From: a virus
Virus record (IMG/VR): IMGVR_UViG_3300045922_000244
Coordinates: 1-27,531 of that record
Length of the DNA: 27,531 nucleotides
Direction: 5' to 3' (one strand)
Shown: positions 16,346 to 25,339 of the stretch, in pieces
How the letters are laid out: each line of letters opens with the position of its first letter
How positions within the stretch are numbered: position 1 is the first letter of the stretch
Notes under the pieces: model-generated
Told to the model about the DNA's origin: nothing
What the model saw: only the letters and a program-made list of their open reading frames with translations
Database searches by the model: none
Made by a program: the position numbers and the translations under genes

Positions 16346-17563
16346 TTAGTCTAGTTTAATGTTAGCGTTAAATCCAGGTGCTCGGCAGCCCAACTGCGCG
16401 TAGTAGCCAACTCGGATTTCTACAGCGTCTGCAGAAGACTCTCGCAACATTTTTAAACCATCAGTGTCCAAAATCTTTGGAGCTTTGCCTAAGCTATAAA
16501 GTTTCCAAGTGTCTAGCTGCAGCAAGAAAGCTCTGTCAGAAGGGCAGTTTTGGTCTGGCATAACCTTTACCGGGCCTTTTGGTCCGTGAACCATAATGCC
16601 TCGGAAGTTAAGGTGTGCGTTTCCAACCTTTACTGCTTCTTCAATGTATTGAACTTTTGAGCCCAAAGACTTTGCAAGTTCGTCCCACTTAGAATAATTC
16701 ATGAAAAGGTGAGACGGACGTCCGCCTTCTCGCGCAACACGATGAATTGCGCCGATAATTGCCTCTTCAATTGGAAGAGCGGAACCATCGTAGCGAATTC
16801 CAGCAAGTCTAGTAGCGTCTACAGAACGGTCAACAGAGAAGAATGGAGTTGGAGTTGGTGCAGAATTTGGCAACCAAGCCTGAAGGCCTTTAATCTTTGC
16901 ATCATAGTCGCCTTCGACGAATACGAAATCATTTGCAGCCACACCGGCGCCGCCATTAATTGCAGTTAGAGGGTCAACAGTTAAAAGGCCGCTGTCTCGG
17001 TCAACGCCAACAACTGTAACTTTTCCAGACTTTAGTGTGCCGCCGCCGTCTGAAGTAGAGAATACAAGTTCCATTCCAACTTCAAAATTAGTAACGTCAT
17101 CGGCCTGCTTTAATTGCAAGCTAGTGCCGGTAGCGTTTGCGTTACACTGGCCGATAGAGCCAGAACCAGTTCTGTACATGGCAATTGCAAGAGAGCGAGT
17201 AATGCTATTAATTGCACCATCAATCTCAGTAGTTGCAGCTTCCATAAACGCATTTTGATTGCCCTTTGAAGCTTCTAAAGTTTCATTGTCAATTGACGCA
17301 AGAGCGTAATCTTTTGCGCGAGTCAACACGAAATCAGTAATCTTAGAGGCAGTCTTATTTGCTTGAGCAGTGCTGAAGCTAGAAGAACGACCTTGTGGAT
17401 TACCATAAATGATTGGAATTGGAAGATTCTTACCTCCAAATGCTTCGTATTTTGGCATCAAGGCAAGTAGTGGATTATCCTTGTATACCATATTTTGTAC
17501 GCGCTCGTCGGTGTAGTGCACCTTTAGCGCAGAGGCGAAACTTGCTAAATCAAGTGAAGCCAT
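16346..17563 (-). CDS. Major capsid protein (HK97-fold type)
   Basis: 405 residues, ATG start with AAGGAG upstream. It fits a phage capsid pattern throughout: an N-terminal helix ASFASALKVHYTDERVQNMV, then KDNPLLALMPKYEAFGGKNL and PIPIIYGNPQGRSSSFSTAQ, a central IDGAINSITRSLAIAMYRTG, and a C-terminal EAIIGAIHRVAREGGRPSHL, NYSKWDELAKSLGSKVQYIE and AVEIRVGYYAQLGCRAPGFN. It follows the scaffold gene and precedes the head-associated gene, the standard order. An insertion-like beta region at ~residues 145-225 (GGTLKSGKVTVVGVDRDSG) may be a surface domain. It is flanked by stem-loops on both sides, probably to tune its high expression. Confidence 0.92.
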   Translation of the reverse strand: MASLDLASFASALKVHYTDERVQNMVYKDNPLLALMPKYEAFGGKNLPIPIIYGNPQGRSSSFSTAQANKTASKITDFVLTRAKDYALASIDNETLEASKGNQNAFMEAATTEIDGAINSITRSLAIAMYRTGSGSIGQCNANATGTSLQLKQADDVTNFEVGMELVFSTSDGGGTLKSGKVTVVGVDRDSGLLTVDPLTAINGGAGVAANDFVFVEGDYDAKIKGLQAWLPNSAPTPTPFFSVDRSVDATRLAGIRYDGSALPIEEAIIGAIHRVAREGGRPSHLFMNYSKWDELAKSLGSKVQYIEEAVKVGNAHLNFRGIMVHGPKGPVKVMPDQNCPSDRAFLLQLDTWKLYSLGKAPKILDTDGLKMLRESSADAVEIRVGYYAQLGCRAPGFNANIKLD

Positions 17564-17591: not shown

Positions 17592-17709
17592 AGAACAATA
17601 AGACCATCTTACTGTTCTATTTTTGGCCTTTAAAGCAGCCATGCTAGTCATTAGGTGACTATTCCGTGCATTTGATTGCACACACTCTTAGTAGGGTTCC
17701 TATCCTACT
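17592..17709 (-). promoter_or_regulatory. Cluster of stem-loops ahead of the capsid gene
   Basis: The 141-bp gap between scaffold and capsid genes (17564-17704) holds four consecutive inverted repeats: AGTAGG/CCTACT (17690-17709, overlapping the scaffold stop), GTGCA/TGCAC (17666-17681), AGTCA/TGACT (17646-17660) and a 12-pair stem with one wobble pair and a three-base loop (17592-17618). The last is followed on the minus strand by a T/A-rich tract and could act as a terminator or processing site just before the capsid ribosome site. No sigma70 promoter is obvious here. Confidence 0.5.
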
Positions 17710-18661
17710 CGACCCACTTGATAAGCTTTGCAGCCTGCGCAAGGGATTCTTCGTCACTTAGGAATCGGTCCGCAGGTTGTGACGTCTGCGACTGCTCATT
17801 TGAGAGCGTAACCGAAGGTTTTGCCTGTTTTGGCTCAGTCTGGACTTTTGGTTCTGAAGCGCCCAATAGCTTCTTAATTTTGCTCAGACCTACTCTTTTC
17901 TTAGCTTCTTCGAGTAAATGGTTTTCAACTAGCATGGCCGCATCCTTTTTATCTAGAATTTCGCCAGTGCTATTATAATGTTCTTCAATAACGTCATAAA
18001 CTAGCTGCACGCCATCTTCGCCTTCAATTGCCAGTAGCTCATACTCTGCGGCGTTTTCGCCCACGTGCTCTGCAATTTCTTGCTTAAAATTTTCAATAAC
18101 TTGTGCGTGCCTTTGCTCTAGTTCCTTCTGCTCTTTTTCTGTTAGCTTTGATTCTAGTTGCTGAAACTTTTCGTTGTATTGTCGTTCAAGTTCTTCCCGC
18201 ATTAACTTCATTTGCAGCTCTGGAGTCAATTTTCCATCGTTTAATGCAATCTGAGCCAATGTTTCGTAGTCAAAGCCTAGGCTTTGTAGCGCTTCAAATG
18301 GATTCTTCTTTAGTCGAAGTTCTAGGGGCTCTTCTTGCTGCTTAGGCTCATCTTTTTGCGCAGAATTTAGGCGCTGCTCAAGTTCTTGCATCCTAGTCTC
18401 AAGCTGCCGCTCTTTTTCTCTGAGAGCCTTTTCTTTTCTAGAAAGGGCAGCAAACTTAGAAGCAAAGAGTCGCTCTTCCTGCGACTGCTCTTCCTTCTTC
18501 GGCTCGGCCTTAACCTCTGTCTCCGTGCCGTCTGCCTTCACTTCGACGCTTTCTGCTGGCGCCTCCTCTTGCTCGGCAACTACATTTTCAATGCCTTCAG
18601 CCTGCTGTAATACATCTGCTGCGCTAATGTCCTCAGTGATTCCACCCTGTCCTTCTACCAT
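17705..18661 (-). CDS. Head scaffolding protein
   Basis: 318 residues from ATG at 18661, which has GGAG five bases upstream. An earlier in-frame ATG (18706) lacks a ribosome site. It is highly charged: an acidic N-terminus (DVLQQAEGIENVVAEQEEAP), then Lys/Glu coiled coil (LFASKFAALSRKEKALREKE, MKLMREELERQYNEKFQQLE) and a C-terminal Ser/Gln tail ending ESLAQAAKLIKWVE. The composition, length and position between portal and capsid genes are those of phage scaffolds. The ALSRKEKALREKE-type segment is familiar from this group. It would guide procapsid assembly and then be lost. Confidence 0.85.
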   Translation of the reverse strand: MVEGQGGITEDISAADVLQQAEGIENVVAEQEEAPAESVEVKADGTETEVKAEPKKEEQSQEERLFASKFAALSRKEKALREKERQLETRMQELEQRLNSAQKDEPKQQEEPLELRLKKNPFEALQSLGFDYETLAQIALNDGKLTPELQMKLMREELERQYNEKFQQLESKLTEKEQKELEQRHAQVIENFKQEIAEHVGENAAEYELLAIEGEDGVQLVYDVIEEHYNSTGEILDKKDAAMLVENHLLEEAKKRVGLSKIKKLLGASEPKVQTEPKQAKPSVTLSNEQSQTSQPADRFLSDEESLAQAAKLIKWVE

Positions 18662-18681
18662 ATTGTCTCCATTTACTTTGT

Positions 18682-18700
18682 GCCCTAGTTCTCCCAGGGC
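18682..18700 (-). promoter_or_regulatory. Stem-loop in the portal-scaffold gap
   Basis: GCCCT and AGGGC arms with a nine-base loop lie about 20 bases before the scaffold start. A perfect GGCCAT-T-ATGGCC palindrome lies just upstream. Either may influence scaffold translation. There is no T-run for a terminator. Confidence 0.35.
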
Positions 18701-18746
18701 GGCCATAATGGCCGGTTATATAGGCTTAAAAGCTCTACATACTAGT

Positions 18747-20594
18747 TCACATGTTTTCTTCAGGCACGCCCTCGGGCGCTGCCACAGGTTCTGGCGCCAT
18801 GGCGGCCTCTGGAGCTGTGGCTGCGGGCTCTGGAGCCTGAACAGCGGCCTGCGCAGCCTGAACCTGTTGCTGGGCCTTTGTGATTAGGGTCTGCGCATCC
18901 TCAATCCAGCGCCTAAAAAGCTCCAGCCTTTCCTCGTCAGCGCCCTTACTGCGGAAGAGCAGGTAGGCTTCCTGCATTTTTTTAATGCCAAGCCCCAAGT
19001 TTTGGTATGGTTCTGGAGTCTCGTATTCTCCGCGCTCAATAAACTGCTCGATAATTCGGTCAATATCTTCGGCAGGCGCATTTCGTAGATTATAGAAAGA
19101 TTGCAGGTCCGGGAAGTCTAGAAGCTTTAAAGCCTCATCCTGCCCGATAAATCCGGCTTGAAGTAGCTCTTGCACGTCCTGCAAGCGAGCTGCTGGGTTC
19201 ATGCTTAGGGCGCTCACTGGAAACACACTCATTAAGTACTGGTCAGCGTCTAAATTAATGTCAGACCACTTTATGCTATCAAAGAATTTTTTACCCTTTA
19301 CACGCACTTGGTACTCGGGATTTTCTTCGTATATTTCTTTTGCTAAGTCAATCATGATTTTGGCAGCGTCTAGGAAGGCTTGTTCGTAGCGCTGCATGAC
19401 GCTCATAAAACGCTCTGTCTCCATGTCATTATAGACTCTCAGGGCTTTTCCAGAGTTTAAGCCTGCAGGCTTGGCGGCAGTTGCAGATAGCTGACTTACG
19501 CCCGCAATTTCAAATGCTCGCTGATATAGGCGGTCTAGGTGAGAAAAAAGCTCCGGAGGAATAGTGCCAAGTTTGCCTTCAACTGGAGGCTGACCATTGT
19601 AATAGATAATGCCGCCAATCTTATTATCGAGATGCTGTGCTACGACCTTGCTTCCGGCCTCGACAAAAATCTTTGGCACACTTACAAGGTGCATACTAAC
19701 TTGAATGGTTCGCAAAATCTTATTAATTTCTAGCTGAATGCCGCTAAGTTGCTCGGCCAGACCTTGGCCAAAAAAGCCAAGCGGGCGCAAGCTCCACCTA
19801 AAAAATACAAAAGGAAAGTAAGACTTAGTGTATGGCTCTGTCCACAAAGTATGGTTTCCAATACTAATTGCGTGCTTTCCGTCCGTTGCATCTTTCTTAC
19901 TGGGAAGGCGCCAAGATTCTACGACCATAATCATGTCTGAAGTTGCTTGCATGGTTGTGTTTAGCGGGGAAATATCGGAATTTGAAGCAGCATCTATGGC
20001 CGCGTCATTTCCGGGAAACATCTCTTTTAGAACGTCTTTGTGTATAAACTTAGTCTGATGCATCTGTCGAGGATGGCCGTAGACGGACTCTTGGTCGTCC
20101 ACCTTTATCTCGTCAATGAATACGCGCTCTACTTTAATGTCTGAGCCGTCCCGAAATACTTTTAAGCAGCCGGTGCCAAAAATGCAAGAGTCTAAAAAGG
20201 CGACCGCCGATTTTGCATAGAACTCGGTCATTTGAAACTGGCCCTCTACAAACTGCGTAAGCTTTTGGGCCCTCTTCTGCATGCTCCAGTCTCCGCCATC
20301 CGTTAGAAACATGGGCTTGGGCTTATTCTTAGTTACTTTAGACACAACCGTGTCAATCATGGACTGCACGACATTTAGCGTGACTCTATTTTGCACGCTA
20401 GCAGAAGGCTCTGCTTTAAAGTACTGGTACATTTTAAGATTTACAAAGTCAAAGTTTCCATAAAGACGCATGTGCTTATAATTATCATTGCGCCTATAGG
20501 ACTGGTCTTGGTCTAATTTTTTAAGCAGTGAGAACACGGCTTCGTGCACTTCACTCTTCTTTACTTTCCACCAATAATAATTTGAACTATCCAT
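18747..20594 (-). CDS. Portal protein
   Basis: 615 residues, ATG start with a modest AAGGG site. The portal pattern is clear: LYGNFDFVNLKMYQYFKAEP, RVTLNVVQSMIDTVVSKVTK, NKPKPMFLTDGGDWSMQKRA, FLDSCIFGTGCLKVFRDGSD, VERVFIDEIKVDDQESVYG, PFVFFRWSLRPLGFFGQGLA, EQLSGIQLEINKILRTIQVS and SGKALRVYNDMETERFMSVM. The C-terminus is an Ala/Pro/Glu-rich tail, probably disordered. The dodecameric portal is the DNA entry channel and the attachment point of the adaptor. It comes after the terminase and a 76-residue gene, as usual in phage head clusters. Confidence 0.92.
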   Translation of the reverse strand: MDSSNYYWWKVKKSEVHEAVFSLLKKLDQDQSYRRNDNYKHMRLYGNFDFVNLKMYQYFKAEPSASVQNRVTLNVVQSMIDTVVSKVTKNKPKPMFLTDGGDWSMQKRAQKLTQFVEGQFQMTEFYAKSAVAFLDSCIFGTGCLKVFRDGSDIKVERVFIDEIKVDDQESVYGHPRQMHQTKFIHKDVLKEMFPGNDAAIDAASNSDISPLNTTMQATSDMIMVVESWRLPSKKDATDGKHAISIGNHTLWTEPYTKSYFPFVFFRWSLRPLGFFGQGLAEQLSGIQLEINKILRTIQVSMHLVSVPKIFVEAGSKVVAQHLDNKIGGIIYYNGQPPVEGKLGTIPPELFSHLDRLYQRAFEIAGVSQLSATAAKPAGLNSGKALRVYNDMETERFMSVMQRYEQAFLDAAKIMIDLAKEIYEENPEYQVRVKGKKFFDSIKWSDINLDADQYLMSVFPVSALSMNPAARLQDVQELLQAGFIGQDEALKLLDFPDLQSFYNLRNAPAEDIDRIIEQFIERGEYETPEPYQNLGLGIKKMQEAYLLFRSKGADEERLELFRRWIEDAQTLITKAQQQVQAAQAAVQAPEPAATAPEAAMAPEPVAAPEGVPEENM

Positions 20595-20615: not shown

Positions 20616-20846
20616 CTAGGAGCCGTTAGCGCTCCAAAATAAAAGTTCCTCATCTTCTTTATTGTCCTGTGTGGCTTCTATGGAGCTTGTCCCCGTAATT
20701 GAATCGACTAATTCGACCAATTTTTCATCCTGTATTGGCACTAGAGTGGAAAATTCTGCCTCTACTTCCGCTAACTTAACTCGCTTAATATTGTTTTTTT
20801 GGGCCCAGAGTAAGAACTCCTTGACCTCTTGTACGTTTTTAAACAT
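20616..20846 (-). CDS. Small conserved phage protein between terminase and portal
   Basis: 76 residues from ATG at 20846, which has AGGAG eight bases upstream. An in-frame start 17 codons earlier lies inside the terminase gene and has no site. The sequence FKNVQEVKEFLLWAQKNNIK followed by RVKLAEVEAEFS is a motif I recognise from small phage proteins lying at this same position in many genomes; function unknown. The C-terminus is acidic (NKEDEELLFWSANGS). Confidence 0.75.
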   Translation of the reverse strand: MFKNVQEVKEFLLWAQKNNIKRVKLAEVEAEFSTLVPIQDEKLVELVDSITGTSSIEATQDNKEDEELLFWSANGS

Positions 20847-20871
20847 GGCTCTAACTCCTGTATTTTTGTTT

Positions 20872-22302
20872 TTAATAGGGCTCTCCCCAAGGGTCATGCT
20901 CGTCCGACCACCCGGTATGTTCCTGCTCCTCTTCTCTTGCCTGCGCTATCTTGGCCCTTAATTTTTCTGCCTCCTTAGCCTCTAATGCATCCATAAACGA
21001 GTCCGTGCCGGGCTTTGGCTGCGGAATTGGCTCCTCATATAGAAAGTGGCGGCACTCTCGCCAAGCGTACAGTATGGCGTCCCCGATGTCCGTATGGTAG
21101 GCGTCTGAGACTCTAGGTCGACCAGGAGTGCTGTAGTCCCACTGCACCCGGTAGCTGTCTTCCTCAAAACGGCTACCCTCGTAGGCTAAAAGCTTGCCAG
21201 TTCTCAAATCGTCGTTCATTAGCTCAATAAATTCCAGCTTTCTTGATTTTTCCGCCGCATGCACTGGAAGTTGGTGCCGCTGTCTAATCTCTTCTTGAAT
21301 TTTCTTACCCAGAGCGCCAGCGTCCATTACCATTTTTGTGGGCTTATAAATGGCCTCAAGTTCGCGAATTTTCTCTGCTAGGTCCGTAATGGTCAATTTG
21401 TCTGCAACAAACTCTTCTACTAAGTAGACGTGCTTACTTGCCTGCGAGAATCCTAGCACGGCTATGGCGTCTGAGTCTTTCCACCCAATATCTATTCCAA
21501 ATATGTACTGAAGCTCTGTCGGCGCCTGCCTATACACGTTTAACTGCTTATTAAATTTGTACACGAGAGAGTCTGTGTCTTCTACCCATTCGCCATAATA
21601 TTCTCGACGTATTGACGGGTCTGATTTTTGAATTCCTCGACGCTCGCAGCGCTCCTCAATAATGGTCTCTACGTCCTTGCCAGACTTTATTTTTATCCAA
21701 GGATTATCATGCAAGGTCCATTTGTGGTGTGACCACCCTTTGCTGTGGCAGGCTTTGTAAAAGTAGCCCGCAGGTATTGGTCCCGGAGTTCCAATAAGTA
21801 TGAGGCTTCCGTCGTAGTCGGTTAGCGCAGGTTCAAGCACTTCATCAATTAGCTGTTCAATGTAAGACCTAAATGATTGTACCTCATCTATGTATATTTT
21901 CCTAAGAGCCACTCCTCGAAATTTTTCAATCTCACTCTCATCTTTGGCCCCGGACACATGAATTTGATTCTTATTTGGAAGTGTCAATGTTAGTTCCGTA
22001 TTATCTGGCACTCCTCCTAGCTTAAACTGTTCGTTAATGTCTAGTAGTGCACGCCAGATAATTCGCTTTGCAGAGCGCCTATTTAGAGTAATGTAGGCCA
22101 CATCGCCCACTTGCGATAGGGCCGTATGTATGAGGTCAGCCGCGCAAGCAATACTTTTGCCCGCTCGGCGGCTGCACACGGCTGTTTTAAACTTTGCCTT
22201 GTCCTGTATAAATGCAAGCTGCTTATCAAAGCAAAATTCTTCCAGCTTAAACTGAGAAGCTTCGGCTCGTCGCCGAAGCTCATTCAGTAAGGTCTTGCTC
22301 AT
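20872..22302 (-). CDS. terL: Terminase large subunit
   Basis: 476 residues, ATG start. ATPase motifs are Walker A-like CSRRAGKS (43-50), Walker B KIYIDE (135-140) and coupling motif LIGTPG (169-174). The nuclease domain has GIDIGW with Asp271, MVMDAG with Asp327, and SDAYHTDIGDA with Asp400/Asp405/Asp408. It packages DNA into the procapsid through the portal and cuts the concatemer. The start overlaps the preceding gene by four bases. The C-terminus (DALEAKEAEKLRAKIAQARE) is a short coiled coil. All key residues are present. Confidence 0.95.
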   Translation of the reverse strand: MSKTLLNELRRRAEASQFKLEEFCFDKQLAFIQDKAKFKTAVCSRRAGKSIACAADLIHTALSQVGDVAYITLNRRSAKRIIWRALLDINEQFKLGGVPDNTELTLTLPNKNQIHVSGAKDESEIEKFRGVALRKIYIDEVQSFRSYIEQLIDEVLEPALTDYDGSLILIGTPGPIPAGYFYKACHSKGWSHHKWTLHDNPWIKIKSGKDVETIIEERCERRGIQKSDPSIRREYYGEWVEDTDSLVYKFNKQLNVYRQAPTELQYIFGIDIGWKDSDAIAVLGFSQASKHVYLVEEFVADKLTITDLAEKIRELEAIYKPTKMVMDAGALGKKIQEEIRQRHQLPVHAAEKSRKLEFIELMNDDLRTGKLLAYEGSRFEEDSYRVQWDYSTPGRPRVSDAYHTDIGDAILYAWRECRHFLYEEPIPQPKPGTDSFMDALEAKEAEKLRAKIAQAREEEQEHTGWSDEHDPWGEPY

Positions 22303-22520
22303 TTTTTAGACTTTTGCTCCTTAGCAACTTCTGTCTCTAATTGTACGTAAGCTACGTTTGGGTACGGAACGATTATTGAATCGTCGTCTCCGTCAACCTG
22401 CACTCCAATGCCTTCTAGCAACTTAACTTGCACATTAGGATGTTGCTGATTTGGAAAATGAGTTACCAATTTTTTTCCTAGGTAAACTGCTTGATAAACT
22501 TTAACCATTTTAATCTTCAT
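22299..22520 (-). CDS. Small hypothetical protein upstream of terminase
   Basis: 73 residues, ATG start with CAGGAG upstream; the ATGA overlap with the terminase couples the two. It is strand-rich (KMVKVYQAVYLGKKLVTHFP, LLEGIGVQVDGDDDSIIVPY, PNVAYVQLETEV) with a basic tail. I do not recognise it. It could be an accessory packaging or virion protein, judged only by position. Confidence 0.62.
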   Translation of the reverse strand: MKIKMVKVYQAVYLGKKLVTHFPNQQHPNVQVKLLEGIGVQVDGDDDSIIVPYPNVAYVQLETEVAKEQKSKK

Positions 22521-22521
22521 T

Positions 22522-23223
22522 TTATTCTCCTGCTTCTATAATGCCTCTAATCATTGGGCATGCACTAACCATAGATTTAACCGCACCAAATAATCCTTCG
22601 GTCATGCGAGCTTCTCGTTCTTCAATTAATTCTGGAGAGCAACGGACAGTTACTACCTGGTCCGCCACATTTTCGTCAACTGCACTTTGTCCGTAGGACC
22701 ACCATTCGTTTGCTATTTTGGCCTTAAATGCGTCTAAATTCATGTTTAATCTTCTAGACACTCTAAGGTCTATTTCACGTATGATAGATTTCCACAAGTT
22801 TAATTGAGATTCCACCTCACCTTCTTCAAATTGTCCAGAAAATCTTCCCGAAGCTCTATGAAACATGATTACTCCGTTGCTCGTAATATTGCGCTTTCCG
22901 GGCAAACTCTGTACTATGGTAGCAGCCATGCTGGCACTGAATAGACTAATGGTCTCAACATTTTGATACATTTTTGCAAACTGAATAAAATCTTCGCCTG
23001 CTACTATGCTGCCGCCTGGGGAGTCTAGCACAATGTAGATGGTGTACGGAGAGCGCCCTCTTTCTTTTACCAATTGCGCAAGCTTTATGGATGCTGTAGT
23101 CATGCTGCTGGGATTTATGTTTGTTCTAATATTAACTGTATTAAGTCTAGTAAGCAGCACTTCTTTAGCTAAGCCGGGAATAGAGCACAGCATTAAGCTT
23201 AGAACACTAAGAATTTTTAACAT
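22522..23223 (-). CDS. Exported ClpP-like serine protease
   Basis: 233 residues. The N-terminal ~19 residues (MLKILSVLSLMLCSIPGLA) are a Sec signal peptide with a likely cut after GLA. The rest follows the ClpP/SppA fold: YIVLDSPGGS (63-72, oxyanion-hole motif), LFSASMAATIV with nucleophile Ser98, IMFHRASG with His122, and AVDENVADQV with Asp188 as likely acid. Spacing Ser to His (24) is close to that of ClpP. A ClpP-type head-maturation protease would stay in the cytoplasm, so the signal peptide points to the periplasm or membrane. The gene overlaps its upstream neighbour by 17 bases and lies two genes before terminase. Its target is unknown; envelope or lysis roles are possible (inference). 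Confidence 0.82.
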   Translation of the reverse strand: MLKILSVLSLMLCSIPGLAKEVLLTRLNTVNIRTNINPSSMTTASIKLAQLVKERGRSPYTIYIVLDSPGGSIVAGEDFIQFAKMYQNVETISLFSASMAATIVQSLPGKRNITSNGVIMFHRASGRFSGQFEEGEVESQLNLWKSIIREIDLRVSRRLNMNLDAFKAKIANEWWSYGQSAVDENVADQVVTVRCSPELIEEREARMTEGLFGAVKSMVSACPMIRGIIEAGE

Positions 23224-23446
23224 CTTCTTTACCCTTTGTTAGTTCGTTTAGTTGTTCAATTAGTAGCTTATTTATGTTTTGCTGCTCTATTGCCAAGTTC
23301 ATTTGTTGAAGCACTAGCTGGATTAGTTGATTTTTTCCAAGTTGTTTTAAAGTACGTTTTAGCAAGGCTATCTCGCGAAGAAGTTCTTTTTTCTGCTCCT
23401 CCGACAATTGAGGAGAATTTGTAAAATCTTGCTCGTTCTTAATCAT
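23207..23446 (-). CDS. Small coiled-coil protein
   Basis: 79 residues, ATG start with AAAGGAG upstream. Residues ~16-70 are predicted helix with leucine heptads: SEEQKKELLREIALLKRTLK, GKNQLIQLVLQQMNLAIEQQ. No family recognised. It overlaps the GNAT gene by eight bases and the protease gene by 17 bases, so it is made together with both. It could be an oligomeric partner, but nothing shows this directly. Confidence 0.62.
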   Translation of the reverse strand: MIKNEQDFTNSPQLSEEQKKELLREIALLKRTLKQLGKNQLIQLVLQQMNLAIEQQNINKLLIEQLNELTKGKEDVKNS

Positions 23447-23972
23447 TTTTTTGCTCCTTTATAAGGGCTTCTGCGGCCCGCTCAATTACTTCTGCGTCTT
23501 GTTTTTTTCTTTGCCTCTCAGCTTTTTTTCTATACGAGCCTGTAAGAGCTACGTATGGGCTGTACACAAAACCAAAGCGCTGTGCTAAATTTTCTGCAAT
23601 TCTAGTGTTGTGCGTGTATATTGCAGCCGTGCCCATCGAGTGGTCAAACTGGTTAATTAAAGTTTTTGCAATTCCCATGCGGCGATAAGTATGCTTTGTG
23701 TACACATAGTGCACGACAAAAATTCCGTCTACTCTTTCGGCGCATATATAAGAAAATATGTCAGTAGGGTCAGTTTTTGAGCACGCAATTAGGACCTCAC
23801 AAGTTTTAAGAAGCTCTTCAATAACTTTGTGATGCTCGGAAAAGTAAACTGCCGGCAACAAGTTATGGCAAAACTTTGAGTTCTGATAACTCTTTAGCCA
23901 CGAGTTAAAAATGAATCCAACGTCCTCTTCAGTGGCCCTGCGGACTTGAATTGGTAGGCTCTTCGTTTCCAT
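23439..23972 (-). CDS. GNAT-family N-acetyltransferase
   Basis: 177 residues, ATG start with AGGAG upstream. Motifs are VRRATEEDVGFIFNSWLKSY at the N-terminus, FVVHYVYTKHTYRRMGIAKT at ~85-104 with Arg97-x-x-Gly100-x-Ala102 for acetyl-CoA binding, and AENLAQRFGFVYSPYVAL later. Similar phage GNATs near terminase genes occur in several aquatic phages, as I recall, but their substrate is not known. The C-terminal ~30 residues are a Lys/Glu helix (YRKKAERQRKKQDAEVIERA). It is unrelated in detail to the GNAT at 9340-9690. Confidence 0.8.
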   Translation of the reverse strand: METKSLPIQVRRATEEDVGFIFNSWLKSYQNSKFCHNLLPAVYFSEHHKVIEELLKTCEVLIACSKTDPTDIFSYICAERVDGIFVVHYVYTKHTYRRMGIAKTLINQFDHSMGTAAIYTHNTRIAENLAQRFGFVYSPYVALTGSYRKKAERQRKKQDAEVIERAAEALIKEQKND

Positions 23973-24391: not shown

Positions 24392-24731
24392 TTGCCCCCG
24401 CTTTCAGCATGCGGCGCTGTCTTAAATTTTCCATAAGTTGCAAAAGTTCTTCATCGGACATATTTGCTAGGTCTGCGTCGTTTGAGCGTTCACGCTCTTC
24501 CTTAGATAAGTCGACCAAGGACTTAACGTAGCCCTGTAAAATTTTAGATTCTTTTAGGTCTAGGCCCTTGACTGGGTCCTTCATAACTTTTTGCTTTAGG
24601 CGTGTTATTTCGTAGCTGACGACGGAAAGAGCGTCATCGAGTAGGTCTTGCACAGACGGTGCAAGGACTGGTTTAGATATTTGTGAGGGCTTAGGTACTA
24701 GAATTCTTCTAGCTCTATTTTCTTCGGACAT
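24384..24731 (-). CDS. Possible terminase small subunit
   Basis: 115 residues, ATG start with GGAGAAGG upstream. N-terminus RARRILVPKPSQISKP, then DLLDDALSVVSYEITRLKQK, DLKESKILQGYVKSLVDLSK, EERERSNDADLANMSDEELL and a C-terminal LMENLRQRRMLKAG. A helical ESxxLxxYVKxLxDLSKEERE...LSDEEL pattern recurs in phage genes near terminases, so a small terminase or packaging accessory is the best guess. No HTH is apparent, which weakens the call. It is separated from the large terminase by six genes. Confidence 0.5.
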   Translation of the reverse strand: MSEENRARRILVPKPSQISKPVLAPSVQDLLDDALSVVSYEITRLKQKVMKDPVKGLDLKESKILQGYVKSLVDLSKEERERSNDADLANMSDEELLQLMENLRQRRMLKAGANE

Positions 24732-24975
24732 TTAGCCTTCTCCGCACTTTTGCTCGTTCCATATTAGTTATGGCGTTTTCGTAGCGTGCGAAGCACAAGG
24801 CGGTTAGGAAAATAGTCCACTGCTCGAAGTAAAGTACGTGCTCAACAGATAGGGCTAGGATGTCGGCGGCCATGTGGGGCTGCATAAAGTCTACCAACTG
24901 CAAAAACTTGCCAAAGATTTGGACAGTAAGACTTAGACATAGGACAAAAATTGTTTTTAGCAAACTGTCAGACAT
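24715..24975 (-). CDS. Holin-like small membrane protein
   Basis: 86 residues from ATG at 24975, which has AAGGGAG upstream; the longer in-frame version lies within the LuxR gene. Two hydrophobic segments: LLKTIFVLCLSLTVQIFGKF (residues ~5-25) and ILALSVEHVLYFEQWTIFLT with LCFARY (~38-65). A strongly basic C-terminus follows (NMERAKVRRRLNVRRK). Two membrane spans, small size and a basic tail fit a class II holin, which would time lysis. No endolysin was recognised beside it. The start overlaps the LuxR stop by eight bases. It could instead be another small membrane protein. Confidence 0.6.
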   Translation of the reverse strand: MSDSLLKTIFVLCLSLTVQIFGKFLQLVDFMQPHMAADILALSVEHVLYFEQWTIFLTALCFARYENAITNMERAKVRRRLNVRRK

Positions 24976-25339
24976 TTTGACTCCCTTTAGTAAGTAAGGT
25001 TTGGCTGTTGGTGGTTTTGGGCGGTATGGCTCTTCTAGTGGCCGCAGGTTGTAGCAAGCCTTCAACGCCGTCGGCAAAATAGCCGCGACGGGCGAGTAGG
25101 ATTATAAAATTTGCACGGTCTGCGACTTTAAAAGTTTTGTACAATTTATTAGTGTGGAACTTTACAGTGTTTAATGCAACGCAAACTAAGTCTGCTATTT
25201 CTTGATTTGAGCGCCCTTCCATTAGGTGGCCGATTATGTCCATCTCTGCTGGAGTTATGCCGTGCACCTGAAACAGGGAAAGTATGTGTGGCTTAAATAC
25301 GAAATCACTTTTTCTTTTGAAGTTTTTTGCGCTTGGCAC
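24968..25339 (-). CDS. LuxR-type HTH regulator
   Basis: 123 residues, GTG start with AGGAGG seven bases upstream. Residues ~28-85 are a GerE/LuxR-type helix-turn-helix: ITPAEMDIIGHLMEGRSNQE, IADLVCVALNTVKFHTNKLY, KTFKVADRANFIILLARRG. The hallmarks T-xxE, GxSNxEIA, TVKxHxxxLYKxF and NR-like ends are all present. No receiver or autoinducer domain is attached, so it is a single-domain regulator with a basic N-terminus and a Lys/Pro tail. It may act on phage or host promoters (inference); it could also bind packaging DNA, since it is in the terminase region. It is coupled to the holin-like gene. Confidence 0.82.
   Translation of the reverse strand: MPSAKNFKRKSDFVFKPHILSLFQVHGITPAEMDIIGHLMEGRSNQEIADLVCVALNTVKFHTNKLYKTFKVADRANFIILLARRGYFADGVEGLLQPAATRRAIPPKTTNSQTLLTKGSQNV

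Follow-up and report, generated by a model that had tools for sequence, protein, structure and literature searches.

A ClpP-type peptidase family with predicted Sec signal peptides in uncultured phages

ClpP is the textbook cytoplasmic protease fed by an ATPase, and the ClpP proteins of phages are taken for capsid enzymes. The catalytic Asp of E. coli ClpP is Asp171. SppA (S49), with a crotonase-type fold, lies on the membrane or periplasm side. We describe here a ClpP-type protein encoded in the window, that is, the whole stretch of 27,531 nucleotides analysed (IMG/VR virus record IMGVR_UViG_3300045922_000244, a fragmentary virus record), together with its homologues. This family shares with ClpP (S14) the fold, the Ser and His columns, the handle-like helix region and an acidic third residue; it differs, at 20-22% identity, in having a predicted signal peptide for the axial segment, Glu for Asp171, mostly Asp/Asn instead of Arg in column 172, just before the acidic catalytic residue, and a C-terminal extension with cysteines. 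The phage head maturation proteases (NF045542; PHROG 94 and 133; Gifsy-2) give the closest profile matches, and Gifsy-2 capsid-processing Clp likewise holds Glu in the Asp171 column (KETW); however, those checked are leaderless, and the exported clade stands apart from them in the tree and can occur alongside a different head protease. The same phages (L004, L009, L021, L057 and others) also carry leaderless ClpP paralogues of the same fold, which are often only one or two genes away but form a branch of their own. In contrast to SppA, the family fails the S49 profile and conserves Ser-His-Glu instead of Ser-Lys, and membership in S49 is ruled out by the failed profile and the conserved His and Glu. 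The closest public protein seen, A0A6J5KYR7 (BFVD, uncultured Caudovirales phage; 35% identity over the full model, E=5.5e-26), is probably of the same family, although it is named only 'ClpP Protease subunit'. As judged from these comparisons, the exported family resembles ClpP and the ClpP-type head proteases and is distinct by its leader and by failing the head-maturation cut-off.

The minus-strand ORF at 22522-23223, 233 aa long, is a genuine gene with a ClpP frame, as the preliminary description had it; AAAGGGTAAAGAAG precedes its ATG at 23223, and its first 17 nt are shared with the 3' end of the upstream gene. The coiled-coil-like gene and the GNAT gene that were named there are both found directly upstream. 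The gene had also been placed at a distance from portal and capsid genes, and this is wrong, as the minus-strand order shows:

23439..23972, minus strand, GNAT-like gene, a conserved neighbour in the window-type relatives
23207..23446, minus strand, charged coiled-coil-like protein of 79 aa, directly upstream of the ClpP-type gene
22522..23223, minus strand, coding sequence of the predicted exported ClpP-type peptidase, 233 aa, ATG at 23223
22299..22520, minus strand, 73-aa protein, directly downstream, at +1 in 27 relatives
20872..22302, minus strand, terminase large subunit, TerL (PHROG 2, E=4.1e-40)
20616..20897, minus strand, 93-aa protein between TerL and portal
18747..20594, minus strand, P22/SU10-type portal (family profile matches)
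17705..18706, minus strand, scaffold-like protein, charged, between the portal and capsid genes, without a family match
16346..17563, minus strand, SU10-type major capsid protein (family profile matches)

The window gene is inside a head/packaging operon, one small gene before TerL. The 'holin-like' label given to 24715-24972 finds no family support in profile searches. Upstream of the late gene block, the minus strand carries a regulator-like gene at 24968-25339 with the look of a LuxR-type HTH protein (phrog_10300, transcriptional regulator, E=2.3e-4). TerL and portal of the window have only distant matches among 50,697 GenBank phages, and its lineage is without a close cultured relative in that set.

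The features of the protein that bear on its fold, catalysis and location are as follows:

23167..23223, minus strand, predicted Sec signal peptide, residues 1-19 (MLKILSVLSLMLCSIPGLA), with K, a hydrophobic stretch and G-L-A
22930..22932, minus strand, predicted catalytic Ser98, in 41 of 41 homologues and 68 of 68 sequences of the tree alignment
22858..22860, minus strand, predicted catalytic His122, in 41 of 41 and 68 of 68 likewise
22705..22707, minus strand, Glu173, predicted third catalytic residue, in the ClpP Asp171 column (E35/D6, n=41)
22660..22662, minus strand, Asp188, equivalent to the non-catalytic GLVD Asp of ClpP
22639..22641, minus strand, Cys195, proposed disulfide partner, in 37 of 41 and invariant in a 25-member alignment
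22558..22560, minus strand, Cys222 (CP motif), proposed disulfide partner, in 37 of 41 and invariant in the same 25

The Pfam CLP_protease domain is found in the window protein (E=1.1e-11) and in all nine family members tested. Structure prediction, suggested earlier as a check, gave a ClpP fold: the AlphaFold2 monomer model, built from a nine-row alignment, has a pLDDT of 87.8, with the leader as its worst-modelled part (a low-confidence helix at residues 4-11), and its best structural matches are solved ClpPs (Foldseek E about 1e-14, rmsd about 2.2 A). A giant-virus protein (Fadolivirus, BFVD A0A7D3V576) also matches the model, with TM 0.81 and 27% identity, and a transfer between phage and eukaryotic virus families is possible. 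The triad first proposed, Ser98/His122/Asp188, stands in its Ser and His, which are invariant, and falls in its Asp: genuine ClpP-type proteases have D, N, G or E at the GLVD position, and it is Glu173 that fills the Asp171 column (E38/D3 in the tree alignment). A Ser-His-acid triad is present in the ClpP register with Glu173 as the acid; catalysis would be by Ser98-His122-Glu173, and the window protein is probably an active peptidase.

The leader was assessed by a rule that serves as a rough stand-in for SignalP and asks for a positive n-region and an uncharged hydrophobic stretch of nine. Starts were picked on the ribosome site and the start codon alone, and the small-residue cleavage site, sought after the rule had been applied, was present in 75. 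Among the 81 non-redundant homologues with complete N-termini, 76 pass, compared with none of 28 ClpP paralogues without a leader from the same phages, 47 of 888 ORFs in the neighbourhood (5%) and 6.5% of shuffled sequences. The five failures are two proteins with a leader from another nearby start (L038, L088), one with a hydrophobic leader without Lys/Arg (L093), one mis-indexed to a neighbouring ORF (L153) and one with undetermined bases (L081). Since the patterns used for the scan (IYLVLDSP and TITLFAASM) were taken from the ClpP core, with the leader excluded, the leader was not selected for. It is kept across the family as a feature and not as a sequence; leaders diverge while cores align, which is the pattern expected of signal peptides. 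By the rule, the window protein has the positive n-region, the hydrophobic core and the small residue before the cleavage site of a Sec substrate, and cleavage is likely after Ala19. A start downstream of the hydrophobic segment is ruled out by the ATG at 23223 with its ribosome-binding site and by the conserved leaders. The window protein is no lipoprotein, having no lipobox (Leu precedes Cys13); a lipobox-like LVAC occurs in one MAG homologue (L079). The Sec signal peptide proposed in the preliminary description is thereby strongly supported, and the search for homologues that it recommended brought together over 80 family members with conserved leaders. To judge by its N-terminus and those of its relatives, the window protein is very probably exported.

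Post-leader cysteines were counted in the same 81 homologues, with the caution that counts in related sequences are not independent: the number is even in 73 and odd in 8, and it is mixed in the leaderless paralogues. The vent group (L009-L015) is without Cys195 and Cys222 and has another pair. Conserved and mostly even cysteines suggest disulfides formed in an oxidising compartment.

The family was collected stepwise. A single protein query gave two relatives at 51% identity; a TerL query gave more contigs, in which each intact gene upstream of TerL starts with a hydrophobic leader; alignment queries gave 46 and then at least 179 encoding contigs in IMG/VR, compared with only 4 among 84,980 prokaryote species represented by one genome each. 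From 132 loci, 83 non-redundant homologues were retained, nearly all viral, and at least 75 distinct uncultured phage sequences other than the window carry a ClpP-type enzyme with an export signal. In a tree made without the leader and the C-terminal extension (41 exported proteins, 20 leaderless paralogues and 7 reference ClpPs), a branch with 96 bootstrap and 91 SH-aLRT, recovered in 97% of bootstrap trees, separates the exported proteins from the rest; the leaderless paralogues sit on their own branch, and a number of terminal branches are long. This tree is most simply explained by a single origin of the exported clade. Such a leaderless ClpP-like gene adjoins the exported one in many relatives (L004:8211-8783, L009:1157-1720, L021 and others); their Asp171 column holds D, N or E, and some copies may be inactive. 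In cultured phages, tblastn with four family members gave no close homologue, only low-identity matches that are mostly known ClpP or capsid proteases, and in open-licence papers we found no description of a signal-peptide-bearing phage ClpP. Within these searches we found neither a prior description nor a cultured representative of the exported family.

The family spans unrelated phage contexts. In class A, the window type, the gene precedes TerL, and a leaderless ClpP often stands between the GNAT and coiled-coil genes. In class B, a marine group, it is between a small-terminase-like gene (weak Pfam support) and a distant TerL. Class C has the order PD-(D/E)XK nuclease, exported gene, separate head protease and capsid gene, and many of its members also carry a leaderless ClpP; the head protease is a Peptidase_S78 in L057 and matches phrog_1028 (E=6e-37) in L058, and the same neighbour family is found in 12 loci. 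In class D (L029, L092, L093 and L107) an Amidase_2 gene directly precedes the gene, and a RusA-like gene and one for a TM protein follow it. Other lysis-type neighbours are an M15 peptidase after the gene in L020, DUF5675 before it in L030 and an SLT transglycosylase near it in L032; further contexts, as read by eye, are after an HNH-like gene and, for one subset, near sbcC/sbcD-like genes.

The reading that we favour, with a probability of about 0.5, is a Sec-exported, ATP-independent, phage-specific ClpP-type peptidase that works in the envelope of the host at a late stage of infection. The ClpP-type serine peptidases of this clade, which is specific to phages, would be made with a Sec signal peptide, so that the periplasm is the destination or an uncleaved anchor facing the periplasm holds the protein, and the cysteines of the C-terminal extension would probably pair there as disulfides. 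The signal peptide would replace the N-terminal axial segment by which ClpP docks its ATPase: the ClpP match begins at residue 24-29, just after the leader, so that no ClpX/ClpA-docking segment is left. As there is no ATP in the periplasm either, the enzyme should act without an unfoldase, on substrates that are presumably exposed, short or unfolded; on the simplest model it is a periplasmic peptidase that needs no ATP. Because the gene is placed with head/packaging or lysis genes, it is probably expressed late. The most likely use would be to cut host envelope proteins late in infection, so that the envelope breaks down and virions leave more easily, a role that we put forward tentatively, at somewhat less than even odds. 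The link to lysis draws on context in some relatives only, namely the class D loci with Amidase_2 directly upstream; counting against it, the window-type gene stands with packaging genes and one subset is near sbcC/sbcD-like recombination genes. A lysis cassette in the window type is unsupported: in the full relatives G001 and G003, read by eye, lysis-type genes sit elsewhere (an M15-like gene at 5.3 kb vs 36.4 kb in G001; a transglycosylase-like gene at 21.6 kb vs 27.4 kb in G003).

One competitor is a protease for head maturation whose hydrophobic N-terminus would be a propeptide or a membrane anchor and which would work on a membrane-bound procapsid. ClpP-type head proteases are known, as in Gifsy-2; the window gene is by TerL, portal, scaffold and capsid genes, the family member lies 1-3 genes before TerL in 45 loci, and the window holds no leaderless paralogue and no other protease among the ORFs examined. 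Against this, the leaders combine a positive start, a hydrophobic core and an AxA-type site with an ever changing sequence, the cysteines are conserved and mostly paired, and the NCBIfam head-maturation model NF045542 gives 36.8 bits against a cut-off of 120. Counting against the envelope reading, all PHROG matches are labelled head-maturation or ATP-dependent protease, via the shared ClpP domain. The separate S78-type head protease of some relatives, often joined by a leaderless ClpP, and the homologues outside any head module make a general capsid-maturation role unlikely, and we regard it as improbable for the window protein as well. The earlier view of an exported rather than a cytoplasmic capsid enzyme is in this respect strongly supported by leaders, cysteines and the separate head protease, though its argument from gene position does not hold for the window.

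Among readings that keep the protein in the envelope, superinfection exclusion, in which the enzyme, once outside, would shave off a receptor or block the injection proteins of later phages, would suit the location and the unrelated contexts; the mostly late-module position speaks against it, no lysogenic context or receptor evidence was seen, and we hold it unlikely. Much the same weight goes to periplasmic quality control or clean-up, in which the enzyme would act like SppA and clear away signal peptides or misfolded proteins of phage or host: exported crotonase/ClpP-fold peptidases of bacteria have such roles (SppA, S49), but the triad here is the ClpP-type Ser-His-Glu/Asp and not Ser-Lys, and S49 matches only one of nine members (E=0.09). 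Less probable still is an exported ClpP-fold scaffold or binding protein without peptidase activity; inactive members exist in the ClpP superfamily, yet Ser, His and Glu/Asp are retained in 41 of 41 homologues. For the exported peptidase that we prefer, clade, leader, fold, catalytic residues, cysteines and contexts are supported at the sequence level. From them we infer its export, disulfides, activity, oligomer, timing, substrate and role, be it lysis, exclusion or protein quality control.

If true, a ClpP moved outside the cytoplasm, with its active site kept and cysteines gained, would be a new phage route to the envelope. The wider proposal, a widespread and distinct class of phage proteases in which an ATP-free periplasmic ClpP breaks down the host envelope as the protein-cutting counterpart of endolysins and spanins, is rather doubtful. 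The family also points to a systematic misannotation, as family libraries give only head maturation or ATP-dependent Clp proteases as its matches.

Some further genes were seen in the relatives. In L058, a 121-kb phage contig, a subtilase with its own leader (L058:6771-7490, Peptidase_S8, E=5.2e-21) directly follows the exported ClpP-like gene, forming a tandem of two exported proteases. TerL is interrupted by an intein at L002:4751-6988 (Intein_splicing E=8.6e-9 in L002) and in L003, and by one of LAGLIDADG type at L038:6961-9447; the L002 intein has a nested alternative-frame DUF559 endonuclease-like ORF (L002:5433-5972, E=3.7e-11). One lineage (L009:2933-3811, L013, L014, L015) has a 2OG-Fe(II) oxygenase gene (PF13759, E=8.8e-19) as an insertion directly before TerL. 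Near the start of the late operon, L007:6759-7208 (G003:25252-25701) encodes a protein with a long perfect Ser-Gln-Ala repeat run, and G003:10342-12150 (L067) holds three tandem paralogues of about 200 aa.
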